A stretch of 64,000 nt of DNA from an uncultured Gammaproteobacteria bacterium. GTDB taxonomy: Bacteria > Pseudomonadota > Gammaproteobacteria > DRLM01. The stretch is taken from contig CAMYKQ010000017.1 in assembly GCA_947259075.1 (NCBI GenBank), positions 1-64,000 on the forward strand, written 5' to 3'. The translations under genes were made by a program, and so were the position numbers. Shown piece by piece: positions 2,212-43,143 of the stretch (the first letter of the stretch is position 1; the number at the start of each line of letters is the position of its first letter). The notes under the pieces are model-generated. The model did no database searches. It worked only from the letters and a program-made list of their open reading frames with translations, and was not told the origin of the DNA.

Positions 2212-2240
2212 CAAAAAAAGCCCGGCGTTGAGCCGGGCTT
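2212..2240 (-). terminator. Rho-independent terminator of the PEP-CTERM gene
   Basis: AGCCCGGC (2219-2226), loop GTTGA, GCCGGGCT (2232-2239), followed on the minus strand by a run of T. It lies about 35 bp past the stop of the PEP-CTERM gene and marks the border with the RHS remnant. Confidence 0.85.
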
Positions 2241-2272
2241 TGAGTTTGTGCTTCTGTTTTTATAATTATGTA

Positions 2273-21730: not shown

Positions 21731-22773
21731 ATCATGACGCCTCTTTTGCTTTTATCGGCGCCATTAGGAAAAATCTTCAATAGCGCTGATGCAATCTCAC
21801 CGACGGGCAACACATCTACCGCGGCATTGAATTGCACCGCCGCCTTAGGCATACCATAAACCGCGCAGGTAGATTCATGTTCCGCGATAGTGTGGCAACC
21901 GCGTTCACGTATACGCAGCAGACCCGCGCCTCCGTCCCGCCCCATTCCAGTCAACAACACCCCGACGACGTCGCCGCGCCAATACGTGGCCACACTCTCA
22001 AAAAATACGTCTACCGAAGGCCGGTATACCATATCGCGGGGAACCGGGGTGTAACTGAGACGTAACAAATCAGTGAGCACTAAGTGGTCATTTGTACCAG
22101 CGATCAATACCGTCCCTACCGTAGGTCTATCGCCTTCCCTGGCAAGCCTTACTGGCATGAGACATTGTTCGTTCAACCACTCCGCGAGATCGCCCGCGAA
22201 CTGGGCGTCAACATGCTGAATAATGACCGTCGCGCCAGTAAAATCCTCCGGGAGTTTTGACAAAATCGTAGCGAGCGCCTTGGGGCCGCCAGTGGATGAA
22301 CCAATCGCCAGCATTTTGATGCCGCTTCGCGCGCCTTCGATAATGCTCGCCGCAGAACCAGAAGAATGGCGCGGCACGACACTCCTCGTCAGCCTTTCGA
22401 TAGTGGCGATTTTCGCCAGCAATCCAGCCGCGCCTTGCTCACCTTCCTGAGCGAGAATAGGCGTGCGCACCGCATCCAAGGCGCCGGCGCCCATGGCTTC
22501 GAAGACCAAGGACGCATTGCCACCCACGGAACTGGTCACCACCAATATTGGGCATGGGGTTTTCGCCATAATCTGACGGGTGGTATCCGCCCCGTTCATC
22601 AATGGCATGATGAGATCCATTAAAATCAAATCAGGCCGGTCTTCCGCGCAACGTTTAACCGCCTCGACACCATCACGCGCCACCCATGCGACCTGATGTT
22701 GAGGGACGCTATTCACCACACGCCGCAAACTCTCTACGGCAAGACTCATATCATTAACGATCGCGATTCTCAC
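21727..22773 (-). CDS. wspF: WspF, CheB-like methylesterase response regulator
   Basis: 348 residues. REC domain at the N-terminus ([20 protein letters not shown], phospho-site in [13 protein letters not shown]) and a CheB methylesterase domain with the catalytic Ser in [12 protein letters not shown], His in [10 protein letters not shown] and Asp in [12 protein letters not shown]. WspF demethylates WspA and so lowers signalling; its loss in Pseudomonas gives constant c-di-GMP production. Overlaps wspE and wspR by ATGA at both ends. Confidence 0.95.
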
Positions 22774-25688: not shown

Positions 25689-26389
25689 GATGTCGCCCTC
25701 TGCAACGCGGAGAATAGCAGAGTTTCGTCGAGGCACCCAACGTGCTTATCACCGAGATCCAACATACCCTTCATATAATTCGTCGCATTCCTTTCAGCGG
25801 TTGCAGGCACATTCTGAAGCTCGGCAAAACCATAGCGGTGAATCCCCTTAACCTCGCTCACCGGAAATACATACCTGCTCTCACTATTGGAAATGACGAC
25901 AAGCCGCGCATAGATTCCTTGCGCGGCATCATCGCCAAGCGACAAGCCTTTATCGACGCCTAACAATCGGCCTAGAGAAACGCACAACTGTAATTCACCC
26001 CGAATATTTACCAGACCTTTCAGCGCACCACTTTTTGCGTGGGGAACACGATGCACAACTCGCATGTCCACGACCTCTTGAAATAAACGCGCGGGCAAGG
26101 CCAGCCATTCATCGGCAATACGAAAAACCACCACGGATAAAGAATTATGATCTTTTTTACTTTTTATCTTTTTTAACTGGTCAGTCCACGTTTTTATATA
26201 ATCAGGGTCGGCATTTCTATCCAAAAGAAGACGCCCGCTATTCGAATAAACCTTACAATTGGCGCAATGAACAACCTTGTCGAGTTCAGGACAACGCGGC
26301 TTCTGCTTCCCCCAGACACCGATTTTGTTCCAACAGTCGTTGATATTTATATCAGGCTTAGACTCAATTTCGCGCTCAGCATTAGCCAT
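25685..26389 (-). CDS. wspD: WspD, CheW-like coupling protein with Cys-rich N-terminus
   Basis: 234 residues. A CheW domain (about 85-230, VVVFRIADEWLALPARLFQE and KGLVNIRGELQLCVSLGRLL) couples receptor to kinase. The N-terminal 75 residues contain NDCWNKIGVWGKQKPRCPEL and HCANCKVYSNSGRLLLDR, a four-Cys arrangement typical of WspD and possibly metal binding. It overlaps wspE by ATGA and lies 56 bp after wspC. Confidence 0.93.
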   Translation of the reverse strand: MANAEREIESKPDININDCWNKIGVWGKQKPRCPELDKVVHCANCKVYSNSGRLLLDRNADPDYIKTWTDQLKKIKSKKDHNSLSVVVFRIADEWLALPARLFQEVVDMRVVHRVPHAKSGALKGLVNIRGELQLCVSLGRLLGVDKGLSLGDDAAQGIYARLVVISNSESRYVFPVSEVKGIHRYGFAELQNVPATAERNATNYMKGMLDLGDKHVGCLDETLLFSALQRATS

Positions 26390-26445
26390 TGTCCATCCCT
26401 CACATCATTACCAGACGGCACATGAAACATCCCATAAAGGTTTCC

Positions 26446-27768
26446 TTACTCATCCTCACCAGAGACTCGAGATGCTCGCGACCTGTAAACTGCGGCAGCG
26501 GCCCAATTTCCGGATAACTCAGCTTGTGCGGCAAGATGGACTAAGGCCTGGTAGTGCCGTGGATTCAAATATACGACTTTTCTAAATAGCTCCCCTGCGA
26601 ATGAATCTTTGCCTTCAGCCTGCCTTATCAACCCCAGCAAGTAATATCCCTCGGCCGATATTACATTCTTAGAAATATATTCTTCACAAAACTCGGCGGC
26701 CTTGGTTAATTCACCTTTATCAGCCATTCTCCTGGCTTCATCCAAGCCCGGCTCGCTAACACCATCACGAATGGATACCTCATCAAGATGAGCATCAGTG
26801 GAAACATCAACGGCATTAGGATGAACCAAAGATTTTGACGGCGCGCTTTTGTAACTATTATTCGACTTAGCCTTATTGGACGATTTTTTACTGTGAATAG
26901 CATTATTTGACGAATCGAGCGGCTTCGGAGAGCTCGGCACAATCAAGGTAGGCTGATCCACCGCAAGTGTTGATGTTGATTTTTTACGAAAAGCAAAAGT
27001 GCCGGCCTGCCGCATAGAAGTGAACTTATCACTCGGCAAACGCCCCCCCTCTGCATGCCCGACAAACAACACCCCGCCGCCCTCCAAAATTCGGTGCAAC
27101 TTAATAACCGCCTCCTCCTGCTGGGTCCTTCTAAAATAGATCAAAACATTACGGCAAAAAATTACGTCGTAAAAATTAACGCCTGACAAGAAATTATCAT
27201 CCAGCAGATTACCATGCTGGATATTAACCATGCTCTTAATCACATCGCTCAACGCATAACCTTCTTCCGTTTTATCAAAATACCTCGAGAGATAACTCCC
27301 AACGTCGCCTCTAAATGAATTAGCTCCATAAATTGCACGGCGCGCGCGCGCCAATGCGCGCATACTTATATCGACTGCGTCGACGCGGACGGTTCCAGAA
27401 TCAAAACCCATATCCTTTAGGATCATCGCGATAGAATAAGGCTCTTCACCGGTCGCGCATGGGACGCTCAAGATTCTCAGCAATTTACTCTTAGAGGGAG
27501 GAAACCATTCTCGTTGCACCAACTGCATCAGGAGAACAAATGGATCTTTATCTCTAAAAAACCAGGTTTCCGGGACGGTCACCGCATCAATGAGCTCTTG
27601 CAATTCCGATGAGTTCTTCACCACCTTGGAAAAGTATTCTTCGATATTAGCGGCACCAATAGCCCTCATGCGCTGATTGACGATTCTTTGCACGGTATTG
27701 CTGCCAATGGATTCGCTATCGAGCCCCATCGCTTCCAGCAATAGATTTTCGATAGCCGTGATACTCAT
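26446..27768 (-). CDS. wspC: WspC, CheR-type chemoreceptor methyltransferase with TPR tail
   Basis: 440 residues. CheR domain with VTVPETWFFRDKDPFVLL, AdoMet site LRILSVPCATGEEPYSIAM and DVIFCRNVLIYFRR. A Ser/Lys/Asn-rich linker of about 80 residues follows, then a C-terminal TPR pair (KGELTKAAEFCEEYISKN, YYLLGLIRQAEGKDSFAGEL), the usual WspC layout. It methylates Glu residues of WspA and so raises its activity. The linker part is visibly AT-rich compared with neighbours. Start and stop overlap wspB by one base (TGATG). Confidence 0.94.
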   Translation of the reverse strand: MSITAIENLLLEAMGLDSESIGSNTVQRIVNQRMRAIGAANIEEYFSKVVKNSSELQELIDAVTVPETWFFRDKDPFVLLMQLVQREWFPPSKSKLLRILSVPCATGEEPYSIAMILKDMGFDSGTVRVDAVDISMRALARARRAIYGANSFRGDVGSYLSRYFDKTEEGYALSDVIKSMVNIQHGNLLDDNFLSGVNFYDVIFCRNVLIYFRRTQQEEAVIKLHRILEGGGVLFVGHAEGGRLPSDKFTSMRQAGTFAFRKKSTSTLAVDQPTLIVPSSPKPLDSSNNAIHSKKSSNKAKSNNSYKSAPSKSLVHPNAVDVSTDAHLDEVSIRDGVSEPGLDEARRMADKGELTKAAEFCEEYISKNVISAEGYYLLGLIRQAEGKDSFAGELFRKVVYLNPRHYQALVHLAAQAELSGNWAAAAVYRSRASRVSGEDE

Positions 27769-28250
27769 CAGCCAACTCCGAACCTAGTTTCTTCGTCTAC
27801 TTTCGGGCTAAACAGTTTATCGCGCAATTCGACGGGCAAAAGTTTATTTATATGGATACACTGAACCATTCCTCTTTCATCCATGGCTATATCGCCGAGA
27901 AATTCCGCGCTTTGAGCACCTCGTCCGGACGACATAAAGGAGGATTTATCGAAATTAGCGGTCTCCGTGACATGCTCCGCCAGAAGGCCGAGGATGTGTT
28001 TACTTTCGTCATTGCCGTACGGGTAATCAACCACGATGATTCTCGTGCTGAGATGACGGCGGACAGGTTCACCACTTATCATCTTGGAAACATCAATAAC
28101 GGGCACCGCTATACTGCGGTAATTGAACAAACCCGCGACATAATCCGGTGTTTTAGGCAGGCGCTTGAGATTGACGTGGGGTATGACTTCTACAACACGC
28201 CTTACATCAAGTCCAAAACGATCTTCCCCAACAGTGAAGAGAAGCAGCAT
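27768..28250 (-). CDS. wspB: WspB, CheW-like coupling protein
   Basis: 160 residues, a single CheW domain: MLLLFTVGEDRFGLDVRRVV, then YVAGLFNYRSIAVPVIDVSK, as in other WspB proteins. It should bridge WspA and WspE. It lies 26 bp after wspA and is translationally coupled to wspC. Confidence 0.93.
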   Translation of the reverse strand: MLLLFTVGEDRFGLDVRRVVEVIPHVNLKRLPKTPDYVAGLFNYRSIAVPVIDVSKMISGEPVRRHLSTRIIVVDYPYGNDESKHILGLLAEHVTETANFDKSSFMSSGRGAQSAEFLGDIAMDERGMVQCIHINKLLPVELRDKLFSPKVDEETRFGVG

Positions 28251-28276
28251 AAGATTTACCCTTCATAGGCCTTCTA

Positions 28277-30325
28277 TCAAGCACTCGCAAACCATGAGTC
28301 AGAATCACGGGAGCGTTTCTGAACTTTGAAACGCGTGACCCCGGCTTGAAGACCATGTGCCGCATCGTTGAGACTTTCTATCGCTGAAGTCGATTGCCGG
28401 ATTGAATCCACCGTCTGCTGCGCGGCCTCATTCAGTTGAATCATGGCTTGCTTGATTTGATCGGCACCTTGTGACTGCGATTGCATGCCTTCATGCACGC
28501 TCTCGAAACGCGGCGTCAATGCCTGCACTTGCTCAATAATCTGCACGAGCTGCACGCCGACCGACTCCACCTCCGCCACGCTGCGACGTACCTCTTCCGA
28601 GAATTTCTCGACACTCATCACCCCGGCGGTCACCGCCGACTGCATCTCTTTAACCATTTGCTCGATATCCCAGGTCGCCACGGCGGTCTGGTCGGCCAGG
28701 CGCCGAATCTCGGTTGCCACCACCGCGAAACCTTGACCGTATTCACCGGCTTTCTCCGCCTCGATGGCGGCATTCAGTGAAAGGAGGTTGGTTTGATCGG
28801 CCACTTTGGTGATTGTGGTGACCACCGTGTTGATATTGCTCGCCTTCTCATTGAGTACTTCCAGTTTAGACGCGATGGAGGCCGAGGCTTCCACAACGTG
28901 GTGCATCGTGCTTTCCATTTTGTCCAGACCGGCCTGACCGCTGCTTGCAGCGACCGCTGTGGTCTCGGCGACGCGCGCCACCTCTTCCATGGTCTTCACC
29001 AATTCTTTTGAGGTTGCTGAGATCTCGGTTGAGGTGGCGACGATTTCATTGACGGTGGCGGCCTGCTCCGCGGCCGTCGCTTCCTGCTGCTTGGCGGTCG
29101 CCGCAATTTCGGTCGCCGATGACGTCACTTGAATGCCAGACTGCTGAACCTGATTGACCAACGCGCTTAAATTTTCCATCATGCGCTGTACGCCACCCGC
29201 CAATTTGCCGATGGTATCATCACCACGTATCTCCACGCGCCCGGTCAAATCACCTTCCGTGGCGCGAACAACCACGCCGAGTATGGTGTCCACCTTGCTC
29301 TGCAAATCCTCCATCGCGCGACGGCGTTCTTCCAGCAAATCCCGCAGATTGTCATTCATTTTCTGCAAGCCCTTGCCAAGCTTGCCGATCGTGTCCTCGC
29401 CGGAAAAACTGATTTTACTAGTCAAATCACCCGCGGCGGTTTTATCCACCGCTTCGAGCAAGATATTGACCTTATTCGCCAACTCATCTGCTACTTGGCG
29501 CTCACGCTCAAGATGCTCCTTTTCACGCTGCGAGGCGGCATCCATATTATCCGCCATGGAGTTAAACGACTTGGCGAGCTTACCCAATTCATCATTATTG
29601 TGAATTACTGCCCGCACTTGATTGTCGCCGCCAGTACGCGCATTCAGTGTATCCATCAAGTTTTGCAGCGGGCGTGATATCCAGCCGCGAAACAGCATAT
29701 TGACCAGTAGTAAACCACACATCAGCAGCACGACATTCGCAAGCGCGCCTACCCATAATTCTTTTTCAACCCCAGCATCCATATCAGCCAAGGAATAGGT
29801 CAATCGAATTGCGCCATTCACCGAACCAGAGGGGACCTGATGGCACTGCAGACAATTGACGCCGCGCGTATCTGGCGTGGCAAGGAAAGGCGTCATGACC
29901 GTTACCGTGCGGCCTTTATTATTTTTTCCGACCACGAGAATATCCTCGCCAGCCAAGGCCCTCTGATCGAGTTCGTCCATCGGCTGCTCTTCGGGGAAGC
30001 CGACGCCGAATTGACCTTTCACAGGCAAGCCGCGCACCACCCGCGCCTCAAGCACATTGGTACGGCGCAGCATTTTTTCCCGCAGGATATTACGCTGATC
30101 CATGGTGCCGGTGAGCATCATGGTGTTGAGACTATCGAAATACAGCGTCGAGGTATCTTTGATCTGATCTTCGGCCAATTTAAGAATCGCTTCTTTCTGG
30201 CGAATTCCGGAATAAATCGTAACGGACCCAACCACCAGGATGAATATCATGGCTACGGTCAAATTAATCTTGGCGCGAACGGACAAACGATCGGCGAAGG
30301 GCAGTCGATTTACAATAGTTTGCAT
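28277..30325 (-). CDS. wspA: WspA, membrane methyl-accepting receptor with periplasmic haem-attachment motif
   Basis: 682 residues. TM1 about 20-40 ([20 protein letters not shown]), periplasmic domain about 41-190, TM2 about 192-212. A membrane-proximal HAMP and two further HAMP-like units follow (each ending in a DTIGKL motif), then the MCP signalling domain with hairpin tip region [18 protein letters not shown]. The periplasmic domain holds C158-L-Q-C161-H162 in [19 protein letters not shown], a classic c-type haem attachment site. Pseudomonas WspA is a surface-contact sensor that, as far as I know, lacks such a motif. This copy may therefore sense redox state or a haem ligand. First gene of the operon, SD-like AAGGAT before the ATG. 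Confidence 0.92.
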
Positions 30326-30888: not shown

Positions 30889-33435
30889 ATGAATACGCTC
30901 GTCAATCAAAACACTATCGAATTTACAGCCCCGAACTCGCACAAAACCGAGCCCTGGCGGCAGCCCCGTATCCTCGTTGTCAACGACCAACCCGATATTC
31001 TCCACCTGCTATCTAAAATCCTTCTCAACGCGGGATACACCCAGATAATAGAAGCAGGCGATGGCGTCGAAGCCGTGCGCCAGCTGCGCACCCACAGCAT
31101 CGATCTGTTGATTACCGATGTACATATGCCCCAATTGGACGGCTGGCGCCTTGCCCGCATGGTGCGTACCGGATTGCTAGGCTGCCCCGCCACCACCCCC
31201 ATCATCGTGGCCTCGGCCACCTTCGGTGAACACATTGCCGAAACAACCGCCCGCGAATTCGAGGTCAACCGCTTTTTCTCGCTGCCGCTGCAAAACCAGG
31301 AAAAATTAACATCGGCGGTACAAAGCCTGCTCACGGAGTCCAATAGCCCCCTCGAAAAACCGCGCTTATTAATCATTGAGGATGACAGCGACACCGCGAT
31401 CCTCGCCGAACGCATGTTACGCAATCGATTCGACATTGAAACGGTTAGTGATGGCCAGCGGGGACTGGAAGCATGGCGTGAGCGGCGCCACAACCTCGTG
31501 CTGCTGGACGTCATGCTCCCCAAAATGAGCGGGCCGGATGTCCTGCGAAAAATACTCGAGGAAGACCCGCAACAAACCGTCATCATCATGACCGCCGATG
31601 GCGGGGTTGAACGCTGCGAGTCGCTGATGCTGGAAGGCGCCGTCGATTTCATCGCCAAACCTTTTCATGCCAATCAATTGCGCCAAATTTGCGAAATCGC
31701 GTTACGCCGCATCGATAGCTTGATCAGCAACCGCCAATTCCTAGAACGTAGTAATGCCCTCAAAACCGCGCAAAGCCACTATCATGAAATCGCGGACGCC
31801 CATCAACGGCTGCTCGACAACCTCAGCTCCGTGGTCTTCGAACTCGATACCAGCGGACATCTGCGTTTCCTCAACCGTTCCTGGGAACAGCTCAGTCACT
31901 ACAAAATTCATGAAAGCCTTGGCCGCCCCCTCTATGATTTTCTCGCGCCCATGGACCGCAGCCAATGCCGCGCCTTCATTCGCGCCCTGGCCGCGGGCCG
32001 TAAACAGCACCATGAACAAGAATTGCGCCTACTGAGTAAGCGCGGCGAAATGGTATGGACCGAAATAACGCTGACCGTTAAGCAAAATACCGATGCCGGC
32101 GTCGAAGCCATTTTTGGCCACATCACCGATATTACTGAGCGCAAGCTGGCGATGGCGCAATTGGAACACTTGACGATTCATGACTCACTAACGGGCTTGT
32201 ATAACCGGCGTTACTTTGAAATCAGCTTAGAACATATGGCCGCGGGCAGCGCCCGTTCCACGGTACGGCATGCGCTGCTATATATAGACCTGGATCATTT
32301 TCAAATGGTGAATGACGCCATCAGCCATCGCGAAGGCGACATCGTACTCAAGAAAATATCGGAGCTTCTCGCCTCACGTACCCGCGAGGCGGATCTGCTA
32401 TGCCGCATCGGCGGCGATGAGTTCGCGATCCTGCTCACCCACACCGACGCCGAACAAGCGCTCGCTGTGGCCTACAGCCTCGTTGAAGTCATCAACAGCT
32501 TCCGCTACCGTCACGACGCTCTTGAGATAGCACTCGGCTGCAGCATTGGCATCAGCCTGCTCGACGGCGGTCAAACTTCCGGCGCCACGCACCTCGTGCA
32601 AGCGGACAGGGCGAGCTTCGTCGCGAAAAATCGCGGCCGCAATCTTGTACATATTTACGACCCCACGGACAAAGACAGCGACGAATTAAGGCAAAGCATT
32701 GATTGGGCCCACAGGGTAAGACAAGCCATCAATGAAGAACGCTTGGAACTCTATATTCAACCGATTCTCGAAGTTAGTAGCGGCAAAATAAACCACTACG
32801 AAGCCCTCTTACGGCTGCGCACGCGAGAACCCGTCGATATCATTTCACCGGGCACCTTCATCCCAGCCGTGGAAAAAGCCGGACAGATCCATATGCTCGA
32901 CCGCTGGGTCATCAAGCGCGCCATCCAATTGCTGGCCAGCGAAAACTGGCTGTTGAAACTGGCGATCAATCTTTCAGGCCATGCCTTCGCCGACCCTGAC
33001 CTGTTCGCCTACGTCGAACACGAGCTCAATAACCAAGGTGTGGACCCGCGGCGGATCATCTTCGAAATCACCGAAACCGCCAGCATCGCCAATATCGATA
33101 AAACCCAACGCATGATCGCGCAGCTACAAAGCCTGGGTTGCGATTTCGCCCTGGATGATTTCGGCACGGGCTTCTGTTCGTTCCATTATCTGCGTCACCT
33201 CCCGGCGGATTATCTGAAACTGGACGGTTCCTACATTAAGAACATCGCCGACAACGACCTCGATCTGGCCATGGTGCGGTCGATGAATGACATCGCCCAT
33301 ATCCTCGGTAAGAAAACCATCGCGGAGTGCGTGGAGACCCCCGCCATCCTGCATTGCCTGCAAAACCTGGGTGTTGACTACGTTCAGGGCCACAGCATCG
33401 GCCATGCATTGCCCTTCGAATTTTATTCCGCATAA
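30889..33435 (+). CDS. c-di-GMP signalling protein, REC-REC-PAS-GGDEF-EAL
   Basis: 848 residues, no transmembrane helix. Two receiver domains (about 27-145, phospho-site LLITDVHMPQLDG; about 157-275, LLIIEDDSDT with LVLLDVMLPKMSG) precede a PAS domain (about 310-415, SSVVFELDTSGHLRFLNRSW). The GGDEF domain has an intact GGDEF (CRIGGDEFAILL) and an upstream RxxD (READ). The EAL domain has YEALLRLR, the catalytic DDFGTG segment and AECVET. All key residues of both catalytic domains are visible, so it could make and degrade c-di-GMP. No kinase is adjacent; it is divergent from wspA. Confidence 0.94.
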   Translation: MNTLVNQNTIEFTAPNSHKTEPWRQPRILVVNDQPDILHLLSKILLNAGYTQIIEAGDGVEAVRQLRTHSIDLLITDVHMPQLDGWRLARMVRTGLLGCPATTPIIVASATFGEHIAETTAREFEVNRFFSLPLQNQEKLTSAVQSLLTESNSPLEKPRLLIIEDDSDTAILAERMLRNRFDIETVSDGQRGLEAWRERRHNLVLLDVMLPKMSGPDVLRKILEEDPQQTVIIMTADGGVERCESLMLEGAVDFIAKPFHANQLRQICEIALRRIDSLISNRQFLERSNALKTAQSHYHEIADAHQRLLDNLSSVVFELDTSGHLRFLNRSWEQLSHYKIHESLGRPLYDFLAPMDRSQCRAFIRALAAGRKQHHEQELRLLSKRGEMVWTEITLTVKQNTDAGVEAIFGHITDITERKLAMAQLEHLTIHDSLTGLYNRRYFEISLEHMAAGSARSTVRHALLYIDLDHFQMVNDAISHREGDIVLKKISELLASRTREADLLCRIGGDEFAILLTHTDAEQALAVAYSLVEVINSFRYRHDALEIALGCSIGISLLDGGQTSGATHLVQADRASFVAKNRGRNLVHIYDPTDKDSDELRQSIDWAHRVRQAINEERLELYIQPILEVSSGKINHYEALLRLRTREPVDIISPGTFIPAVEKAGQIHMLDRWVIKRAIQLLASENWLLKLAINLSGHAFADPDLFAYVEHELNNQGVDPRRIIFEITETASIANIDKTQRMIAQLQSLGCDFALDDFGTGFCSFHYLRHLPADYLKLDGSYIKNIADNDLDLAMVRSMNDIAHILGKKTIAECVETPAILHCLQNLGVDYVQGHSIGHALPFEFYSA

Positions 33436-33578
33436 AATTTAAGCTATCAAGTCCGTCGCTTGGTGCGGGCGCAACAAGGGAGGGACGCGCACCGGGTCCA
33501 CCATTTCTTCTCACCGCAATTTGTTGCATGCGCCGCGACAGTCTATTATTGTACGTATCTGTGTCAGGGAGGAACGTT

Positions 33579-35531
33579 ATGCCGTCAGTTACCCCTAGCG
33601 ATGCTTCCAATAAAAATAAAGAAGCCCATGAGCCTTCCCCAACGCAGCCGCTACGTGCCGCGGATCTCATACTCCATTATTTACAGCAACTCGATATCGA
33701 ATTCGTATTCGGTATTCCCGGCGGAGGCATTGAGCCTTTATACGATGCCCTAGCCCGCAGCCAACGGCGCGGCGGCCCCCGGCCGGTCATCGCCCGCCAT
33801 GAAACCGGCGCGGCCTTCATGGCCGACGGTTATGCCCGCGAAACCGGTAAACTCGGCGTCTGTTGCGCCACCACCGGCCCCGGCGCCACCAATATGATCA
33901 CCGGCATCGCCTCCGCGTTTCAGGATCAAATCCCGCTGCTGGCCATCACCGCCCAAACGCCATTGCGCACCTTCGGCCGCGGCGGAGTGCAAGAATCGAG
34001 CTGCACCGGCATTAACACCGTCGCCATGTATGAACACTGCACGCGCTATAACACCCTGGTCTCCCATGTCGAGCAGCTGGAACGTAAACTCATCACCGCC
34101 ATTACCATCGCCATGCAAGCCCCGCAAGGGCCCGTGCATTTAAGCATCCCGCTGGATATCCTGCGTGAGCACGTGAGCATTGAACCGGAGCACAATTTAA
34201 AATCCTTGCTCTATCCCTCCTACGCGATCGACGATGGCGCCATCGACCAGCTGCATAACACCTTAGCCACGGCGCACAACGCCGTGTTCGTACTCGGCGC
34301 GGGGGCGGGTCATGCCGTGGGCACCATCCTCGAAATCGCCGTACTTCTAAACGCTAACGTCGTCACCACCCCGCACGCCAAAGGTTTGGTGAGCTCCTAT
34401 CACCCCCAATACCGCGGCGTGTATGGACTCGCCGGCCATGCCACCGCGCACAACCTGCTCAAAAACCCCAGAGTGGACGCCGTGCTCGCCATCGGCACCG
34501 ATCTAGATGAGCAGGCAACCAACAGCTGGGACAGCACCGCCCTCATGAGCAACAAAGTCACTTTCATCGACACCACCGCCCTGCATTTCTCTCGTTCACC
34601 CATGGCGCGCCAGCACATCAGCGGCAATCTGCGCAGCTTGTTCGATCGCCTCATCACCCGTTTGTACACCCACCGCAAGGAAGAAGAACCGGTGCTGTGG
34701 CAATTCGCCGAACACAACCGGCCGCGACAGTTCCCGGTCATCCAATTCGACCGCCGCGCGAACGAACGGAGACAGCCCCGCACCGGCACCAGCTCGAGCG
34801 TCACCCCTATTCGCCCCAAGGATAAACGCCACGAACACGAGCGCCGCGGCAGTCTCGCCATCCCGCAAACCGCCCGCCGCTTTCTGTTGCAAGACGAAGA
34901 CAAGTACATCTCCGACACCCGCCCCATCAAACCCCAGCGGCTGATGTACGATCTATCCCGGCTCTTCCCGCCCACCACGCGCTTTCTCGCCGACATCGGC
35001 AACAGCTTTCTGTGGGTGATTCATTACTTGCACCCCTACGACCGGCGCATCATCGGTGACCGCTCACTCCCCACGGGCGTCATCCGCCTGGGCATGGGCT
35101 TCGCCTCCATGGGCTGGGCCATCGGCGCGGCGGTGGGCACCGCCCTCGCCGCCCCGGGCAATCCCGTGGTCTGCATCGCCGGTGACGGCGCCATCCTCAT
35201 GAGCGGCCAAGAAATCAACACCGCGGTGCAGGAAAAATTATCCATCATCTTCGTCATCCTCAACGACGCCGCCTTCGGCACCGTCAAGCACGGCCAGCAG
35301 ATGTCCGGCGCGGAACTCATCGCCCACGAACTGCCGCCGGTCGACTTCGTGACCTACGCGAAATCCATGGGCGCGAACGCCTACCGCATCGACTCCCCCG
35401 ACGACATCGCGGCGTTGAACATCGGCGCCCTGTGCCGGCACCCCGGCCCCACGGTGCTCGACGTCCACATCGACCCCGACGAACTGCCGCCATTGGAAGA
35501 GCGCATCAAGATGCTCAAAGGCAAAGCGTAA
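33579..35531 (+). CDS. Acetolactate-synthase-like thiamine diphosphate enzyme, unknown reaction
   Basis: 650 residues with the three-domain ALS/pyruvate oxidase plan. The N-terminal PYR domain has the catalytic Glu (VIARHETGAAFMADGYARET) and GPGATNMITGIASAFQDQIP. The middle domain has VFVLGAGAGHAVGTILEIAV and AVLAIGTDLDEQ. The C-terminal PP domain has the ThDP/Mg motif GDGAILMSGQEINTAV ending in VILNDAAFG. Between middle and PP domains (about 365-448) lies an unusual basic insertion (FDRRANERRQP, KDKRHEHERRG). Family members make C-C bonds from 2-oxoacids; the substrate is not predictable. The ATG at 33579 has GGGAGG 6 bases upstream. It leads a cluster with two citrate-synthase-fold genes. 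Confidence 0.85.
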   Translation: MPSVTPSDASNKNKEAHEPSPTQPLRAADLILHYLQQLDIEFVFGIPGGGIEPLYDALARSQRRGGPRPVIARHETGAAFMADGYARETGKLGVCCATTGPGATNMITGIASAFQDQIPLLAITAQTPLRTFGRGGVQESSCTGINTVAMYEHCTRYNTLVSHVEQLERKLITAITIAMQAPQGPVHLSIPLDILREHVSIEPEHNLKSLLYPSYAIDDGAIDQLHNTLATAHNAVFVLGAGAGHAVGTILEIAVLLNANVVTTPHAKGLVSSYHPQYRGVYGLAGHATAHNLLKNPRVDAVLAIGTDLDEQATNSWDSTALMSNKVTFIDTTALHFSRSPMARQHISGNLRSLFDRLITRLYTHRKEEEPVLWQFAEHNRPRQFPVIQFDRRANERRQPRTGTSSSVTPIRPKDKRHEHERRGSLAIPQTARRFLLQDEDKYISDTRPIKPQRLMYDLSRLFPPTTRFLADIGNSFLWVIHYLHPYDRRIIGDRSLPTGVIRLGMGFASMGWAIGAAVGTALAAPGNPVVCIAGDGAILMSGQEINTAVQEKLSIIFVILNDAAFGTVKHGQQMSGAELIAHELPPVDFVTYAKSMGANAYRIDSPDDIAALNIGALCRHPGPTVLDVHIDPDELPPLEERIKMLKGKA

Positions 35532-35551
35532 GCACCGCGGCCGCCAGATGC

Positions 35552-36388
35552 ATGGCTGATAAACGCGACATATTCAACACCCGGATTTGGGACGAAGTAC
35601 CCGAAGCGGACAACCCCTTCGCCGCGGCGGCAAGTTTCTGCCATGGCTATGACGTCTACGGCGACCTTCTCGGCAAAGCCAGCTGGATAGAATATTTATA
35701 CCTATTGTTTCTTGGTGAACGGCCCTCAAGCCAACAAGCCGCCTTGCTCGAAGGGCTCGCCGTTGCCCTCGCCAATCCCGGCATCCGCGATCACAGCGTC
35801 CATGCCGCCATGAATGGCGGCGTCGGCGGTTCCACCAGCGCCTCGTGTCTAATGGCGGCCTTGGCCGTCGGCGCGGGTCAGCTCGGCGGCGCGCATGAAA
35901 TCTATCGCGCCATGGAATACTGGAACAGCTGCGGCCGCGACATCAAAACCTGGGAGCACCTGCTGCGCAATCCGCCCCAAGAAGAACGCATCGACATTTG
36001 GCTGCCCATGGAGCACGCGCCCGGCTTCGACCCCCACGGCGCCAGTTGCAGCACCCCCGTCCGCCAAACCTTGACGTACCTCAGCGCCCAAAGCCCCGGC
36101 CCGCACCTGCCTTGGTTATCAGCGCAGCGTGTTCTGCTCGAAAGCATCACCGGCTCCCCCCTGGCCATGAGCGGCGTCGCCGCCGCCGCGTTTCATGATC
36201 TCAAACTCAGCGCGGAACAGGGCGAGATGCTTTATTTACTGCTGCGCCTGCCCGGCGCGGCCGTCCACGCGCTGGAACAAAAAGACTACGGCTGGCGGCG
36301 CTTCCCCTTTTTCACAAATGCGCTCCACCTCGAAAACGACCCCGGCCCCGTTGTCGCGCCAGATAAAGAAACGAGTGACGCAAAATGA
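35552..36388 (+). CDS. Citrate-synthase/citryl-CoA-lyase-fold protein, first of a pair
   Basis: 278 residues, close to the short citryl-CoA lyase form (about 260-280) rather than full citrate synthase (about 400). Recognisable family segments are WIEYLYLLFLGERPSSQQAA near the start, MNGGVGGSTSASCLMAALAV, GAGQLGGAHEIYRAMEYW (equivalent of the GPLHGGA(H/N)E loop, but without the catalytic His before GGA), and GEMLYLLLRLPGAAVHALEQ at the end. The region where the catalytic Asp is expected reads PLAMSGVAAAAFHDL, with Ser in place of Asp by my alignment. The stop overlaps the start of the next gene (ATGA). A normal citrate synthase reaction is unlikely. Confidence 0.8.
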   Translation: MADKRDIFNTRIWDEVPEADNPFAAAASFCHGYDVYGDLLGKASWIEYLYLLFLGERPSSQQAALLEGLAVALANPGIRDHSVHAAMNGGVGGSTSASCLMAALAVGAGQLGGAHEIYRAMEYWNSCGRDIKTWEHLLRNPPQEERIDIWLPMEHAPGFDPHGASCSTPVRQTLTYLSAQSPGPHLPWLSAQRVLLESITGSPLAMSGVAAAAFHDLKLSAEQGEMLYLLLRLPGAAVHALEQKDYGWRRFPFFTNALHLENDPGPVVAPDKETSDAK

Positions 36389-37185
36389 GCGGCCCGGAAA
36401 AACTACTCGAGACTGAAGGCCGCTGGTCCACCACCATGGGCGCCTCCTTCCCCGGCGAGCGCGTGGTATTCCGCGGCAAAGACCTCTTCCACGACCTAGG
36501 CTCGCTCTCGTGGATGCAGCTTTATTTATACGGCATCACCGGCCGCATCTTCGGCGAGCATCAAAGCAAACTATTCGAAGGCATCTGGGTGCTCTCGACC
36601 AGCTACCCCGACCCGCGTCTGTGGAACAACCGCATAGCCTCACTCGCCGGCACCGCCCGCAGCACCGGCAGTCTAGGCGTCAGCGCCGCCATGGCCGTAT
36701 CCGATGCCAGCATATATGGAGGACGACCAGAAATTAGGGCCATGAATTTTCTCCTGCGCGCGCAAAAATCACTGGACGCGGGAAAAACGCTCGTCGACAT
36801 CATCGAAAGCGAGCTGGCGAAATACAGAAACATCTATGGCTATGGCCGCCCCATCATCAACGTCGACGAACGCATAGGCCCGCTGCACACCATGGCCAAG
36901 GAACTGGGATTGGCGGACGGGCCTTATGTCAAGCTCGCCTTTACCATCGAAGAGACGCTGCTTGCCAACCGCTGGCGCATGCACATGAACGTAGCCTCGC
37001 TGATCGCCGCAATAGCAGCGGATCAGGACCTTACGGAACGGCAATTTTATCTGTATATGCTGCCAACGTTTATCGGGGGTATTGTTCCCTGTTTCAGCGA
37101 AGCGAACGAACGCGGTGAAGGTACTTTTTTACCGATCCGGTGTGATCAGCTCGCTTACGCGGGTCCAGGCAAACGGCAATGGTAA
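36385..37185 (+). CDS. Citrate-synthase/citryl-CoA-lyase-fold protein, second of a pair
   Basis: 266 residues. Family landmarks are FHDLGSLSWMQLYLYGITGR, GVSAAMAVSDASIYGGRPEI (the GGA loop), NIYGYGRPIINVDERIGPLH (the G-x-G-H-x-V loop, with Arg in place of the catalytic His), and RMHMNVASLIAAIA (the NVD loop, with Ala in place of the catalytic Asp). These substitutions are read by eye against citrate synthase and ATP-citrate lyase. Like its partner it seems degenerate, so the two may form a heteromer with a new or non-catalytic role. Overlaps the upstream gene by ATGA and is 47 bp before the TonB receptor. Confidence 0.8.
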   Translation: MSGPEKLLETEGRWSTTMGASFPGERVVFRGKDLFHDLGSLSWMQLYLYGITGRIFGEHQSKLFEGIWVLSTSYPDPRLWNNRIASLAGTARSTGSLGVSAAMAVSDASIYGGRPEIRAMNFLLRAQKSLDAGKTLVDIIESELAKYRNIYGYGRPIINVDERIGPLHTMAKELGLADGPYVKLAFTIEETLLANRWRMHMNVASLIAAIAADQDLTERQFYLYMLPTFIGGIVPCFSEANERGEGTFLPIRCDQLAYAGPGKRQW

Positions 37186-37232
37186 TAAATGGCGCAACAA
37201 TCAAAAAAAACAACTCAAAGAAGGTCGCATCC

Positions 37233-39317
37233 ATGAAGCTATCACAGCTCACCATCTACCTCTTCGTTACAGTGACTGGCGCTTCTTTAGCGCATGCCGC
37301 ATCGCCATTCTCCGATGAAAGTGAATTTGCCCTCACTTACGGCGACGAGGAAATGCTCAGCATAGCGACGGGGGCGGCGCAACCCATCGCCCGCGCGCCC
37401 GCTGTCGCCAGCGTAATCACGGCCGCGCAGATAAAAGAGATAGGCGCCACGGATCTTGACCAGATATTGGAAACAATACCGGGACTGCATGTATCCAGAT
37501 CAAATAGGCTGTATAACCCGGCGTATGTCATACGAGGCATCTACTCGGAAACCAATCCTCAAACATTGGTATTAGTTAATGGTATCGCCATCACTAATAT
37601 TTTTTCAGGCGATCGGAGCCAAGTCTGGGGCGGCATGCCAGTCAATAATATCGCCCGCATAGAAGTGATACGCGGTCCGGGCTCCGCCATTTATGGCGCG
37701 GACGCCTTCTCCGGCGTCATCAACATCATCACCAAAGACGCGCAAGACATCGATGGCACCGAGGCCGGCGCACGCGTCGGCTCCTTCGAGTCAAAAGATA
37801 TCTGGCTCCAATACGGTGGCGAGCACAACGGCTTGAGCACCGCCTTCTCCCTTGAATATGGGACAACGGACGGGCAGCGGGAGACGATTCAAGCGGACGC
37901 CCAAAGCGGGCTGGACGCGTTATTCAGCACCAGCGCCTCGCTCGCGCCCGGCCCGGTGAATCTCGGACGCAAATATTTGGATACCCGCGTTGATGCGGGC
38001 TGGAACAATTGGCGGCTGCGCGCGGGTTATCAAGGCCGCCGCGATGTCGGGACCGGCGCGGGCGTGGCGCAAGCGCTCGACCCCGCGGGCAGCAATGAAA
38101 GTGACCGCTACAACGCCGATCTCTCCTATCATTTCGCGGATGTGGAGGATTGGGACACCACCGTCGAGTTAAGCCATTTCAATAGCAGCGCCCGTTCCGA
38201 TCTCGTCTTGTTCCCGCCCGGCACCTTCGCCGGTGCCTTTCCGGACGGCCTCATCGGCAACCCCGACGTCTATGAACGTCATACCCGTTTGGGCATTTCC
38301 AGCTTCTACACCGGCTGGGAACGGCATCGCCTGCGTCTCGGCGCGGGCCACAACCACAGCGATCTCTACAAGGTCAAGGAAACGCATAATTTCTTTTTCG
38401 CCCCCGGCGGCATCCCCGTCCCGCTCGGCGGCGTCGTCGACGTCAGTGACGCGGCGGCCTTCGTGCGGGAAGAAACGCGTCAAGTCAATTATGTCTTCGT
38501 TCAGGATGAATGGTCGTTCGCGCGTGACTGGAGCCTCACCGCGGGCCTGCGTTATGACAATTATTCAGACTTCGGCGACACGGTGAACCCGCGCGCCGCC
38601 ATCGTCTGGCAAACGGCCTTCGATCTGACTACCAAACTATTATACGGCCGCGCCTTCCGTGCGCCGTCCTTCGCCGAGCTCTATAACATCAATAATCCCG
38701 TCGCGCTGGGAAATCCTGATCTCAATCCAGAAACGATCGACACCATTGAATTAGCATTTGATTACCAGCTGTCAGGCAAGGCGCGCACCGGCCTCAATCT
38801 TTTCCATTATAAAATGCAAGATATTATTCGGCCCATCAATGACCCGGCACCCGCGACAACGGTAACGGCGCAAAATACGGGAAACCAATCCGGCTACGGC
38901 TTGGAGTGGGAACTCAGCGCCAACATCAGCAACACAACCCGCTTGATCGCCAATTATGCATTGCAACGTTCGGAGGACGAGAACACTGACTCAGATGCGG
39001 GCAATGCCCCGCATCATCAAATCTATCTGCGCGTCAACTGGCAAGCACTCGACAATTGGACATTCAGCCCGCAAGTGACCTGGATCGGTGAACGGCAACG
39101 GGTCTTCGGTGACGCGCGGCCGCCAGTCGCTGATTACACCACCGTGGACATTACCGTGCGCCGCACCCGCACATTCGGTAATTTCGAATTCGCCGCCTCA
39201 ATCCGCAATCTCTTCGATGAGGCCGGATATGAACCCAGCCTAAGCCCGGGCCAGATACCACAAGACTTGCCCATGCCAGGACGCAGCCTCTATATCGAGG
39301 GGAGCTATTTTCTATAA
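37233..39317 (+). CDS. TonB-dependent outer-membrane receptor
   Basis: 694 residues. Signal peptide (MKLSQLTIYLFVTVTGASLA, cut near AHAA), plug domain (PAVASVITAAQIKEIGATDL, VLVNGIAITNIF, RIEVIRGPGSAIYGADAFSG) and a 22-strand-type barrel ending RSLYIEGSYFL with the terminal aromatic. The plug is of the vitamin B12/colicin-receptor (BtuB/CirA) type; the ligand is unknown. I chose the ATG at 37233, preceded by AAGAAGG, since it gives a clean signal peptide. It is the last gene of the TPP - citrate-synthase-fold cluster by spacing and strand, which may point to uptake of a related small molecule or its metal complex. Confidence 0.92.
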   Translation: MKLSQLTIYLFVTVTGASLAHAASPFSDESEFALTYGDEEMLSIATGAAQPIARAPAVASVITAAQIKEIGATDLDQILETIPGLHVSRSNRLYNPAYVIRGIYSETNPQTLVLVNGIAITNIFSGDRSQVWGGMPVNNIARIEVIRGPGSAIYGADAFSGVINIITKDAQDIDGTEAGARVGSFESKDIWLQYGGEHNGLSTAFSLEYGTTDGQRETIQADAQSGLDALFSTSASLAPGPVNLGRKYLDTRVDAGWNNWRLRAGYQGRRDVGTGAGVAQALDPAGSNESDRYNADLSYHFADVEDWDTTVELSHFNSSARSDLVLFPPGTFAGAFPDGLIGNPDVYERHTRLGISSFYTGWERHRLRLGAGHNHSDLYKVKETHNFFFAPGGIPVPLGGVVDVSDAAAFVREETRQVNYVFVQDEWSFARDWSLTAGLRYDNYSDFGDTVNPRAAIVWQTAFDLTTKLLYGRAFRAPSFAELYNINNPVALGNPDLNPETIDTIELAFDYQLSGKARTGLNLFHYKMQDIIRPINDPAPATTVTAQNTGNQSGYGLEWELSANISNTTRLIANYALQRSEDENTDSDAGNAPHHQIYLRVNWQALDNWTFSPQVTWIGERQRVFGDARPPVADYTTVDITVRRTRTFGNFEFAASIRNLFDEAGYEPSLSPGQIPQDLPMPGRSLYIEGSYFL

Positions 39318-39523
39318 TTTAGAGAAGCCCTGATTCATTGCGTGATACATAAATCGCAAGCTCCGTTCCCCTGTGAAGGCATGGGGATGAACGGCTGGCC
39401 GGCACAAGACTATACACCCCCCTCTTAACCCCAAGCCCGCGGAAGAGAGCGAAGGCGAAATCGCTTGCGCTGAATTATCCTCGCATCCAATTCAAAGATA
39501 CCCAGACCGGCGCTCGTAAAAAC

Positions 39524-41149
39524 TCAGTCCAGCGCAGGCGCGTCCGCATCACGCCGTTGACGCCCAACCGCGTGAGCGTCTTTAACCGGAAGCGGAATCC
39601 GCACGGAGAAGGTCGACCCTTGTTGAGGCACGCTTTTCAAAGAAATATTCGCCCCCAGCAGATGGCATAATCTCTGGGTGATGCTCAAACCCAAACCAGT
39701 CCCGCCGTATTCACGCGTGGTACTCATGTCCGCCTGCCTGAACTCCTCGAATATCCGCGCCTGCTGTTGTTCGGATATACCTATACCCGTATCGGACACA
39801 TCGAGATCAAGTTGCTCCTTACTTACGTTCACCACCACATCGATACGGCCGTGCTTGGTAAACTTCACGGCGTTACTAAGCAAGTTCAGCACTATTTGCC
39901 GGAGCTTCTGCCCATCCATCATCACCGTTTTCTGCTCACCATCAACCCGCACCGTTAATTGATTGTCATTTTTCTTCACGAGTATCCTTACGGTATCAAC
40001 CGCCTCAAAAATCAATTCTTTTATATCGGTGGGCTCAAGCCAAATATCCATATGGCCTGCCTCGATCTTCGCAAGGTCCAATATGGTATTTATCATCGCC
40101 AGCAGATGATTCGCCGCGGCATGGACACGGCGCAAGTCGGTTACCACCGCGTCATTACCCTCAATCTCCATCTCCTCAATCACCATCTCGGTATATCCAA
40201 TGATGGCATTCAAAGGGGTGCGGAGCTCATGACTCATATTCGCGAGAAATTCAGACTTGTGCCGGCTGGCCAGCAGCGCTTGATCGCGCGCCGCCACCAA
40301 CTCTTGGGTACGTGATGACACCAAGGATTCAAGATTATCGTTTTGCTCCCGCAGCTGGCGATCCCTTTGCTCCAGCGCCGTAATCATTTTGTTGAATACT
40401 TCGGCGATAGTCCTCACCTCAGCCGGGCCTTCAACGACTGACCGCGAATGCGCCTCCCCTTCCCCCGCTTTTCTCATAATCACCGCGAGGGCCTGTAAAG
40501 GCGAAGTAGCGCGATTAACTATAACGCGCAACAAAAAGACCAAGACCGCGGCGAAGATTAAAGCAACGATGATATTATTAATGAAAATAGTCGCCTGGGC
40601 CTTGAGTAATTCAGCCTTACTGAGCGCGACATGCACGAATCCCAGCTGTTCAACAAGTGGATCTCGCAAACGAAATTGCGACTCCACCCCTTCCGCCGCA
40701 TCTTGCCGCGAATACACTGGCGCGACGAAATGAAATGAGGAGTTGGTTTCTTCCAACAATAATGCCCTGTCATCACCGGAAATCACGGATAGAATATCTG
40801 ACGAAGGCGTCCAATCCACCTTCTCGCCTTGCGCAAGCAAAATCATGTTCTCCATATTATAAATGGATACATAGCGAATATTCGGGAAGGCAAGGGTGGC
40901 CTTAACCGCATCCGCGGCATTTTCTTTGGAAGAAAATAACAGCGCCAGCACACTTTGCGCGGCGAAATTATCCGCTATCTGCTCACCTTCTTGAACCAGC
41001 AAGCCGCGTATATTTTGACTCTGCAAAAACGCGGTCGCCATCGACGCCAACAAAGCCAAACACGCCACGCCAATGGACACGGTATACAGTAGTTGTTTCC
41101 GGAAACTCCACGATGGCGGCAAGATACGATCGAGGACGCTCATCCGCAC
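39524..41149 (-). CDS. Membrane sensor histidine kinase (HAMP-HisKA-HATPase)
   Basis: 541 residues. TM1 about 18-42, periplasmic domain about 43-187, TM2 about 192-212, HAMP about 212-270, coiled coil, HisKA with phospho-His in FLANMSHELRTPLNAIIGYT, then HATPase (NLLSNAVKFTKHG, VSDTGIGIS, GGTGLGLSITQRL). No response regulator is beside it. It begins 3 bp after the stop of the periplasmic binding protein gene on the same strand, so the two probably work together, with the binding protein presenting a ligand. Convergent with the TonB receptor. Confidence 0.92.
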   Translation of the reverse strand: MRMSVLDRILPPSWSFRKQLLYTVSIGVACLALLASMATAFLQSQNIRGLLVQEGEQIADNFAAQSVLALLFSSKENAADAVKATLAFPNIRYVSIYNMENMILLAQGEKVDWTPSSDILSVISGDDRALLLEETNSSFHFVAPVYSRQDAAEGVESQFRLRDPLVEQLGFVHVALSKAELLKAQATIFINNIIVALIFAAVLVFLLRVIVNRATSPLQALAVIMRKAGEGEAHSRSVVEGPAEVRTIAEVFNKMITALEQRDRQLREQNDNLESLVSSRTQELVAARDQALLASRHKSEFLANMSHELRTPLNAIIGYTEMVIEEMEIEGNDAVVTDLRRVHAAANHLLAMINTILDLAKIEAGHMDIWLEPTDIKELIFEAVDTVRILVKKNDNQLTVRVDGEQKTVMMDGQKLRQIVLNLLSNAVKFTKHGRIDVVVNVSKEQLDLDVSDTGIGISEQQQARIFEEFRQADMSTTREYGGTGLGLSITQRLCHLLGANISLKSVPQQGSTFSVRIPLPVKDAHAVGRQRRDADAPALD

Positions 41150-41152
41150 AAC

Positions 41153-42109
41153 CTAAGGCGAAGGAAAAGTAAGCGTAGAATCACGCTGCATTTCGATAGG
41201 AATCGTCAGCCCCAAATGATCGGCGCTGCGCGTGTTCACCGCGGCTTGTAAATCAGTGAGCGGCATAATGGTAAACTTTGGCTCACCCCCACCATTCAAT
41301 ATAGTCTTAGCAAGTTTAGCCAAACTTACGCCCATTGCCTTATTGTCCGGAAACAAGGAAAAGAGCGCCCCTCGCTTCACATGGCCCGGGTTGGTGGAAA
41401 ACACCGCAATATTTTTATCCCACGCACCCTTCAAAATTAGAGGCAATATCACCCTATCCTCCACCGTAGTCGGATCGGGAAGCAACCAAATGGCATCCGC
41501 CGATTGACGGCTATTCGCGATAATGTCCCTATACACCCGCACCGCGCCTTTGCTGTCTTGGACCGGGTACGCGGCCAGCTTGAGTCCGTGGCGCTTGGCC
41601 GCGCTTTGCCCCAAGCTGACCAACCATTGACTATTGGCGCGGTTGTACACCACGTTGACGTTTTTAATCTCGGGTGAAAGCACCTTGAGCGTAGAGAACA
41701 ATAAATCAGGATCGGCAGCGAGACTGATGCCAAACACACCAGGGCTCACGTCACCCGGCGCGATAATCAACGCGCCCACGACGATCGGCTTATTTAACTT
41801 TAAATCTTGCGCGGCGGCGAACCCCCCGCGCCCGAGCGCGATTATTACCTCAGGGTCTCCGCGCACCAAGACCTCCCGCAGTGCATCACGGTCGTAACTG
41901 TCCCCGATCGCGTAGCTATTGACCTCGCGCGCCGCCTCTTGTTGGATCCCATCGAGAATCGTGGTAATCACTTCCCGGTATGGCTCGCGCATATCGGGAT
42001 ACAACACGGCAATGGAACCTTCAGCGGCCTGCGAAACGGAAAAAAACGGCATCCCAAGCAAACAAATGCCCGCCGACACCACTATCCGTACTAACGAAAT
42101 AAAGGTCAT
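41153..42109 (-). CDS. Periplasmic binding protein, ABC_sub_bind (TrpX/COG2984-like)
   Basis: 318 residues with a signal peptide (about 1-28, ending FFSVSQAAEG). The fold signature is that of the ABC_sub_bind family: SIAVLYPDMREPYREVITTI, then PEVIIALGRGGFAAAQDL, KPIVVGALIIAPGDVSPGVF, NVNVVYNRANSQWLVSLGQS and VFSTNPGHVKRGALFSLFPD. No permease or ATPase gene is nearby; the partner is the adjacent histidine kinase, so it may be a sensory rather than a transport binding protein. Ligand unknown. Confidence 0.85.
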   Translation of the reverse strand: MTFISLVRIVVSAGICLLGMPFFSVSQAAEGSIAVLYPDMREPYREVITTILDGIQQEAAREVNSYAIGDSYDRDALREVLVRGDPEVIIALGRGGFAAAQDLKLNKPIVVGALIIAPGDVSPGVFGISLAADPDLLFSTLKVLSPEIKNVNVVYNRANSQWLVSLGQSAAKRHGLKLAAYPVQDSKGAVRVYRDIIANSRQSADAIWLLPDPTTVEDRVILPLILKGAWDKNIAVFSTNPGHVKRGALFSLFPDNKAMGVSLAKLAKTILNGGGEPKFTIMPLTDLQAAVNTRSADHLGLTIPIEMQRDSTLTFPSP

Positions 42110-42729: not shown

Positions 42730-43143
42730 TTAAAGTGCGGCTCTGGCCCGTATTCTTAAACAAAAAGCCAGCCACTCCCCCAGAAACTGGTTTACCCGCC
42801 GCTTTTCATGGGGCTGAAACATCCGGGGATTGGGGTAGGGATAGAGCGGTTTAAAATGCCCCGCGCTTTGATAGGACAGGACTTCGGCGACACGCGCATC
42901 GCGGTAAATTCGTATTTTCATGTATACGGCACGCACATAACGCGCATCGGCGTCCATCACGTGTGATAGAGAAATCGTCGTTGTGTATGGACTGCGATCC
43001 AGCAGCTTCACCTTCAGAGGCGGCACCCCTTCCCCACACAACACCACCCCATCCTCGATCGTATCGAGTCCAGGCAGCAAGGCCATCAGCCGGGAGAAGT
43101 TCTCCTCATAGATGACAAGTGGATTTTGTGCTACATACGTCAC
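42730..43143 (-). CDS. DUF1249 protein (YqiB-like)
   Basis: 137 residues. The pattern YEENFSRLMALLPGL near the start, the middle LKVKLLDRSPYTTTISLSHV, MKIRIYRDARVAEVLSYQS, and the C-terminal PYPNPRMFQPHEKRRVNQFL with GEWLAFCL match the DUF1249/YqiB family of gammaproteobacteria. The family is cytosolic and its role is unknown. It is separated by about 110 bp from the slipin gene on the same strand. Confidence 0.85.
   Translation of the reverse strand: MTYVAQNPLVIYEENFSRLMALLPGLDTIEDGVVLCGEGVPPLKVKLLDRSPYTTTISLSHVMDADARYVRAVYMKIRIYRDARVAEVLSYQSAGHFKPLYPYPNPRMFQPHEKRRVNQFLGEWLAFCLRIRARAAL

Follow-up and report, generated by a model that had tools for sequence, protein, structure and literature searches.

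A conserved module of a ThDP-dependent enzyme, two citryl-CoA-lyase-fold proteins and sensory genes hints at a circuit for producing or processing a small molecule and detecting it

A stretch of 64,000 nucleotides from an uncultured gammaproteobacterium (contig CAMYKQ010000017.1, positions 1 to 64,000; in the following "the window") contains a module of seven genes, which is located at 30889-42109. Its metabolic part encodes a thiamine diphosphate (ThDP)-dependent enzyme and two small proteins, CS1 and CS2, that resemble citryl-CoA lyase but are devoid of its canonical catalytic residues. The comparison of many genomes shows that these genes belong to a conserved metabolic and sensory module, in which ThDP enzyme and CS1/CS2 are joined to a TonB-dependent outer-membrane receptor, a periplasmic substrate-binding protein (SBP), a sensor histidine kinase (HK) and a GGDEF-EAL protein. 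From this composition, we suspect a hitherto undescribed system for the production (or processing) and the sensing of a small molecule. In the reading that we favour, with a probability of roughly 0.4, the products of the ThDP-CS1-CS2 genes would make or convert a small molecule, and the TonB/SBP/kinase arm would detect it and trigger a cyclic di-GMP (c-di-GMP) response. A search of the literature yielded no paper that joins these parts.

Composition and conservation of the module

An earlier note, made from the sequence of the window alone, had described four tandem plus-strand genes, from the ThDP enzyme to the TonB receptor, and the coordinates of the open reading frames (ORFs) agree with that description throughout. 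The ThDP and CS1 genes are separated by 20 bp, CS1 and CS2 overlap by an ATGA, and 47 bp lie between CS2 and the TonB receptor gene when ATG 37233 is taken as the start of the latter; an alternative in-frame ATG at 37179 would overlap CS2. The four genes are real, but the set turned out to be larger, because the GGDEF-EAL, kinase and SBP genes also belong to it (Table 1), which points to signalling.

Relatives were collected by scanning 84,980 species genomes with a CS1 profile. The scan yielded 255 confirmed relatives, and 80 loci with flanks of up to 10 kb were kept; all loci were found via CS1 only, and many are truncated by contig ends. Clustering of the neighbouring genes in 81 loci revealed six families that stand far above all others, namely the ThDP enzyme (77 loci), CS2 (76), CS1 (69), the TonB receptor (68), the histidine kinase (55) and the SBP (52). 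The count for CS1 stays below 81 because some of its genes were overlooked, or extended wrongly, by the simple ORF caller. The seventh commonest family is a GGDEF-EAL protein, which was found in 15 loci. Most of the ortholog loci retrieved share the order ThDP-CS1-CS2-TonB, in agreement with the earlier proposal of a single functional set of four genes, and a 4-bp overlap of the ThDP and CS1 genes is frequent.

The families also occur together across genomes. The SBP (44 genomes) and CS2 (40) share 35 of about 340 genomes of the class (Fisher p ~6e-34), and the ThDP enzyme (37) and CS2 share 32 (p ~3e-32). The p-values are only a guide, because the genomes are not independent and the CS2 list was drawn from a slightly larger sample of 369 genomes, with three entries removed by hand. 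A chance operon was considered as well and is ruled out by the recurrence across loci and the phyletic co-occurrence.

The kinase and the GGDEF-EAL protein form a single polypeptide in 40 loci, and they are encoded by separate genes in others, including the window. One fusion protein (locus L046) comprises sCache_4, HAMP, HisKA and HATPase domains, three REC stretches, Hpt, GGDEF and EAL. The GGDEF-EAL gene of the window is likewise located upstream of the ThDP gene in L031, L041, L053, L055, L213 and L214. The fusions support the view that the flanking genes in the window encode the kinase and the output of one pathway. The GGDEF-EAL protein of the window, the GGDEF and EAL motifs of which look intact by eye, is the probable output of the module kinase.

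The module is distributed over many gammaproteobacterial families, some Betaproteobacteria, Desulfuromonadia and one Planctomycetota metagenome-assembled genome, and falls into four clades that differ in gene order. Carriers include Porticoccus, SAR92, Cycloclasticus, Marinobacter, Thiohalobacter, Collimonas, Gallionella, Dechloromonas, Pelotalea and Desulfuromonadaceae. A search of plasmids with CS1 gave no match, so there is no sign of carriage on plasmids.

Table 1. Genes of the module in the window
Gene product	Position	Strand	Length (aa)	Domains and remarks
GGDEF-EAL protein	30889..33435	+	848	REC-REC-PAS-GGDEF-EAL (Pfam)
ThDP-dependent enzyme, acetolactate synthase-superfamily fold	33579..35531	+	650	ORF; TPP_enzyme_N/M/C (Pfam)
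CS1, citryl-CoA-lyase-fold protein without canonical catalytic residues (fold as modelled)	35552..36388	+	278	
CS2, citryl-CoA-lyase-fold protein without canonical catalytic residues (fold as modelled)	36385..37185	+	266	
TonB-dependent outer-membrane receptor	37233..39317	+	694	Plug and beta-barrel (Pfam)
Sensor histidine kinase	39524..41149	-	541	sCache_4-HAMP-HisKA-HATPase; convergent with TonB
Periplasmic substrate-binding protein (SBP)	41153..42109	-	318	PF04392 ABC_sub_bind

Directly upstream of the module lies a Wsp-like chemosensory array (20579-30325, minus strand), which encodes REC-GGDEF, CheB, CheA-REC, CheW, CheR, CheW and a methyl-accepting chemotaxis protein. This array is itself a c-di-GMP system, and parts of it accompany the module in L031 and a few further loci. 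A gene for a DUF1249 protein (42733-43143, minus strand) remains close to the module in several close relatives. At 702-3130 (minus strand), visual inspection pointed to an RHS-type repeat protein, of which the end is present, and to a protein that is probably PEP-CTERM-anchored. PADLOC gave no match to a defence system.

Residues of the ThDP enzyme and of the CS1/CS2 pair

ThDP enzymes of the fold found in acetolactate synthase (ALS) form or cleave carbon-carbon bonds adjacent to carbonyl groups. Judged from its sequence, the enzyme of the module looks catalytically competent, as cofactor and catalytic residues are kept: among 103 ThDP enzymes of the family, the Asp of the GDG motif is present in 102, the Asn in 101 and the catalytic Glu in 99, the other four being gaps. 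A Gln is retained as in ALS, and all 103 sequences share a His that is specific to the family. Two further residues were inspected, the Trp of the RQWQ motif and the Arg of the GARFDDR motif, which we take, from structures of acetohydroxyacid synthase, to be the specificity and acceptor-site residues of ALS. The Trp position is occupied by Gly in 101 of the 103 enzymes, and the Arg is retained in 10 only. For this reason, the enzyme is probably not an acetolactate synthase. Its score with the ALS equivalog model was 288 bits (cut-off 538), and the nearest solved structures are BbmA (8X3X) and CsmA (8X3Z), ahead of every ALS entry. The earlier assignment to the ALS family holds for the catalytic Glu and the GDG..N motif, but an identity as ALS is improbable. 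Similarly, the wider module is in keeping with the proposal that a product is made or sensed, but the loss of Trp and, mostly, of Arg makes a branched 2-hydroxy acid, one of the products suggested at the time, unlikely. An alpha-hydroxyketone-type product would be plausible because this is the usual chemistry of ThDP carboligases.

The enzyme also contains a low-complexity insert between domains (residues ~370-445, window positions 34686-34913). Of about 16 related members, most carry repeated ERRxxxRR-type motifs in the insert; the shorter ones of ~600 aa lack it.

Both CS proteins match the Pfam family Citrate_synt below its gathering score. With the PRK06224 citryl-CoA-lyase models, CS1 and CS2 score 46 and 50 bits, compared with cut-offs of 245 and 212, and in both cases the top profile match in the PDB was the citryl-CoA lyase of Hydrogenobacter thermophilus (6HXP). 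AlphaFold models of CS1 and CS2, based on alignments of 23 and 24 sequences, had pLDDT values of 86.5 and 84.7. The CS2 model matched 6HXP with a Z score of 22.9 over 235 residues (3.2 A). For CS1 the respective values were 18.9, 235 residues and 4.3 A, and 6HXP tied with the CCL modules of ATP-citrate lyase. As modelled, CS1 and CS2 have the fold of citryl-CoA lyase.

The conservation of single residues was analyzed in an alignment of 98 CS1 and 97 CS2 sequences with five ordinary citryl-CoA-lyase-like proteins and 6HXP. The catalytic His-His-Asp set is intact in four of the five ordinary proteins, and the fifth retains one of the three residues. In contrast, all three residues are lost in 182 of the 195 CS1 and CS2 sequences, and no sequence retains more than one. 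None of the 97 CS2 proteins has any of them; the same is true for 85 of the 98 CS1 proteins, the other 13 retaining the first His alone. At the first His position, Leu is found in CS1, and the His is lost in CS2 as well. The second His position is occupied by Pro/Ser in CS1 and by Arg in 97 of 97 CS2 proteins, where the profile alignment reads equally well as a deleted His. The catalytic Asp is replaced by Ser/Thr/Pro in CS1 and by Ala/Ser/Gly in CS2, and in none of the 195 sequences is an Asp or Glu found within two residues of this site. The alignment and the models revealed no catalytic His or Asp nearby, and the analysis did not turn up a close homologue whose reaction is known. The degeneracy of the catalytic sites, which had been noticed before in the two proteins of the window, is thus a property of both families.

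The families keep different residues, so that their decay is complementary. All 97 CS2 sequences have the "DPR" Arg and the "LNVD" Asn, and Cys has taken the place of the C-terminal His in 95 of them. CS1 lacks this Arg and this Asn but retains the C-terminal His (98/98), a Glu (97/98) and an Arg (81/98); the CS1 protein of the window has kept the Arg, His239 and Glu242. Near-invariant residues of CS2 are Arg155, Asp161, Arg163 and Asn202, which are polar and lie in the pocket, and Cys236. CS1 and CS2 each form one clade with full support in a FastTree tree, and their distance matrices are correlated with r = 0.89 (86 loci). Taken together, CS1 and CS2 probably form a heteromer.

Alternative arrangements and competing explanations

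The gene set was not found in a uniform order. Clades B, C and D hold it in differing orders (independent ARRANGEMENTS), and it is therefore not a single inherited operon order. In clade B (L140-L150, L216, L242), the CS proteins of which are ~30% identical to those of the window, TonB, CS1-CS2, SBP-HK-GGDEF/EAL and ThDP are found in other orders and on other strands. Clade C (L151, L152, L163) has the order TonB-CS1-CS2-ThDP-SBP-HK on a single strand. In clade D, the ThDP-CS1-CS2 trio is present and TonB and SBP are absent; the trio adjoins a Ser/Thr-kinase-AAA-GAF-histidine-kinase and a response regulator in L153, L160 and L161 (kinase domains assigned by Pfam for L153 and by resemblance for the other two) and an AMP-ligase in L154. 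PAS/GAF hybrid kinases adjoin the trio in L219 and L220, so that other signalling genes stand beside the ThDP-CS genes where TonB/SBP are missing. A module-type ThDP gene without CS1/CS2 lies next to genes for a FIST-domain protein and an HK in L206:11581-13691 and L207:11297-13440 (Pfam for L206), and L200 has the order ThDP-methyltransferase-TonB-SBP-HK, with the methyltransferase gene (L200:12509-13303) in the place of the absent CS genes. In L141, genes for a YfiR/HmsC-like and a CHASE8-GGDEF-EAL protein lie close to CS1/CS2, and an accessory short-chain dehydrogenase/reductase gene is present in L083, L147, L150 and L216. Several apparent exceptions to the co-occurrence could be explained: the ThDP gene is located elsewhere in the genome in G071 and G201, and the absence of CS1/CS2 from G081 is probably due to the location of ThDP and TonB at contig ends. 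Frameshifts in TonB, CS2 and ThDP were noted in G034, in which the set of six is complete, and at L242:8949-14365 in a single-contig genome, where they reflect either decay or sequencing error.

We hypothesized that these parts work as one circuit. The ThDP enzyme, aided by CS1/CS2, would make or convert a small molecule, and the CS1/CS2 pair would bind a carboxylate or acyl-CoA ligand or organise the ThDP enzyme. The molecule would be caught at the outer membrane by the TonB receptor and then be bound by the periplasmic SBP, and the kinase would relay the signal to the receiver domains of the GGDEF-EAL protein, whereby the c-di-GMP level would be set. As in LuxPQ, a periplasmic binding protein serves for sensing when it is encoded beside a kinase with a periplasmic domain and no ABC permease accompanies it. 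Exactly this arrangement is found for the SBP of the window, and no gene for an ABC permease or ATPase is present near it.

The same genes might serve the uptake and catabolism of an exogenous compound, which would enter through the TonB receptor, be sensed by SBP and HK with an effect on c-di-GMP, and be cleaved or decarboxylated in the cytoplasm by the ThDP enzyme and the CS pair. The conservation of the TonB receptor with the set, the existence of lyases and decarboxylases among ThDP enzymes and the few genomes that hold the sensors without ThDP/CS are all in line with this explanation. Nevertheless, we regard it as less likely than the circuit. An inner-membrane transporter is missing among the conserved neighbours, except for a gene of one syntenic lineage that looks like a member of the major facilitator superfamily, the SBP is not accompanied by a permease or ATPase, and clade D has retained ThDP-CS1-CS2 and a kinase without TonB and SBP. 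Synthesis is favoured over catabolism because of the missing transporter, because the accessory biosynthetic enzymes vary while the sensing parts are constant, and because the ThDP-CS genes swap among sensor types. Several observations weigh against synthesis and sensing. As the TonB receptor fits the uptake of an external compound too, a circuit that makes and senses its ligand is only a minority-to-even bet. Low-mass signals usually work without a TonB receptor, which would suit the import of a ligand that is scarce or large just as well, and a dedicated exporter was not found. The distances of the ThDP enzyme correlate more weakly with those of CS1/CS2 (r ~0.53), so the ThDP enzyme may be exchanged. 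The Fisher tests assume independent genomes, which is not the case. Lastly, SBP-HK, with or without TonB, is present in G204, G213, G232 and G286, in which ThDP/CS2 were not detected; such sensor-only genomes fit eavesdropping but equally an external ligand.

The remaining explanations concern the chemistry. For the TonB receptor, the relatives with solved structures retrieved by sequence search bind, for the most part, siderophores, heme and B12, and the enzymes might make an alpha-hydroxycarboxylate chelator that the receptor recovers and SBP-HK senses as a metal complex. This is improbable, since such matches are generic for the receptor superfamily, the CS pair lacks the residues for the synthesis of a citrate-like acid and the ThDP enzyme lacks the ALS acceptor residues. 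In addition, neither a metallophore synthetase (including the NRPS-independent siderophore type), nor an exporter or a metal-handling gene was found among the conserved neighbours in the 81 loci; the metal-chelating product of the earlier note is without specific support. Ordinary metabolism, i.e., a misannotated acetolactate synthase beside citrate-metabolism genes, could explain the profile matches at the superfamily level and is the least probable of all. The scores are far below the equivalog cut-offs, specificity and catalytic residues are lost, and the link to signalling genes is conserved. We reject this explanation because of the lost residues and because genuine ALS and citrate synthase genes are present in the genome away from the module. 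For CS1/CS2, for which the earlier note had considered a scaffold, a purely regulatory or scaffolding role as subunits of the ThDP enzyme, with ligand binding but no catalysis, has a nearly even chance and is compatible with the circuit proposed here. It is in accordance with the loss of His/His/Asp in nearly all 195 sequences, with most sites variable and other residues of the fold invariant, and with the frequent overlap of ThDP and CS1, but the near-invariant CS2 residues would also fit a new active site, and at least one locus (L200) has ThDP and TonB-SBP-HK without the CS pair. Somewhat less probable is that the two form a heteromeric enzyme whose active site is new and whose substrate is the ThDP product or its acyl-CoA donor or acceptor. 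The complementary retention of residues and the tight co-evolution of CS1 and CS2 speak for it; however, the residues that are split between the two reside in one subunit in citrate synthase, and a reconstitution in trans is not obvious.

Going beyond the single circuit, we tentatively propose, with the odds against us, a widespread and undescribed bacterial signalling system in which a ThDP carboligase and a dead or re-tooled CS heteromer give rise to a new class of diffusible signal and a TonB-SBP-kinase relay sets c-di-GMP. If true, an overlooked small-molecule circuit would control c-di-GMP and the switch between sessile and motile life, and it would be common to marine oil degraders (Cycloclasticus, Porticoccus, Marinobacter) and to Collimonas, Gallionella and Dechloromonas from soil and groundwater. 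It also raises an enzymological question, i.e., why a ThDP enzyme is so often paired with two CS-fold proteins devoid of citrate-synthase catalysis.

Comparison with known systems

The known YfiR-type and FIST-type systems with c-di-GMP or HK genes do not, to our knowledge, include ThDP/CS genes, and in the loci analyzed here such genes appear only as alternative neighbours (L141, L206). The fold of CS1/CS2 is common to citryl-CoA lyase (6HXP) and the CCL module of ATP-citrate lyase. In contrast to these, CS1 and CS2 lack His/His/Asp, form two separate subunit families and are coupled to a ThDP enzyme and sensors. Acetolactate synthase (IlvB/AlsS), BbmA and CsmA share the ThDP domains, the catalytic Glu, the Gln and the GDG...N motif with the enzyme of the module, but the latter differs from acetolactate synthase by the Gly in place of Trp, the mostly missing acceptor Arg and the score far below the cut-off.

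LuxPQ and CqsS are quorum-sensing receptors according to a published article (PMC5467912). The likeness of the module to autoinducer-2 (AI-2)/LuxPQ and to CqsA/CqsS with the signal CAI-1 is one of logic only, i.e., a synthase and a periplasmic or membrane kinase receptor. The parts differ, since the module has a PF04392 binding protein, an sCache_4 kinase, an unrelated ThDP-type synthase, a TonB receptor and a GGDEF-EAL output, and it is the linkage of the genes that points to a self-made ligand. In summary, the module would work like known circuits that make and sense a molecule but belongs to none of them, as its relatives at the level of the fold fail the residue tests.

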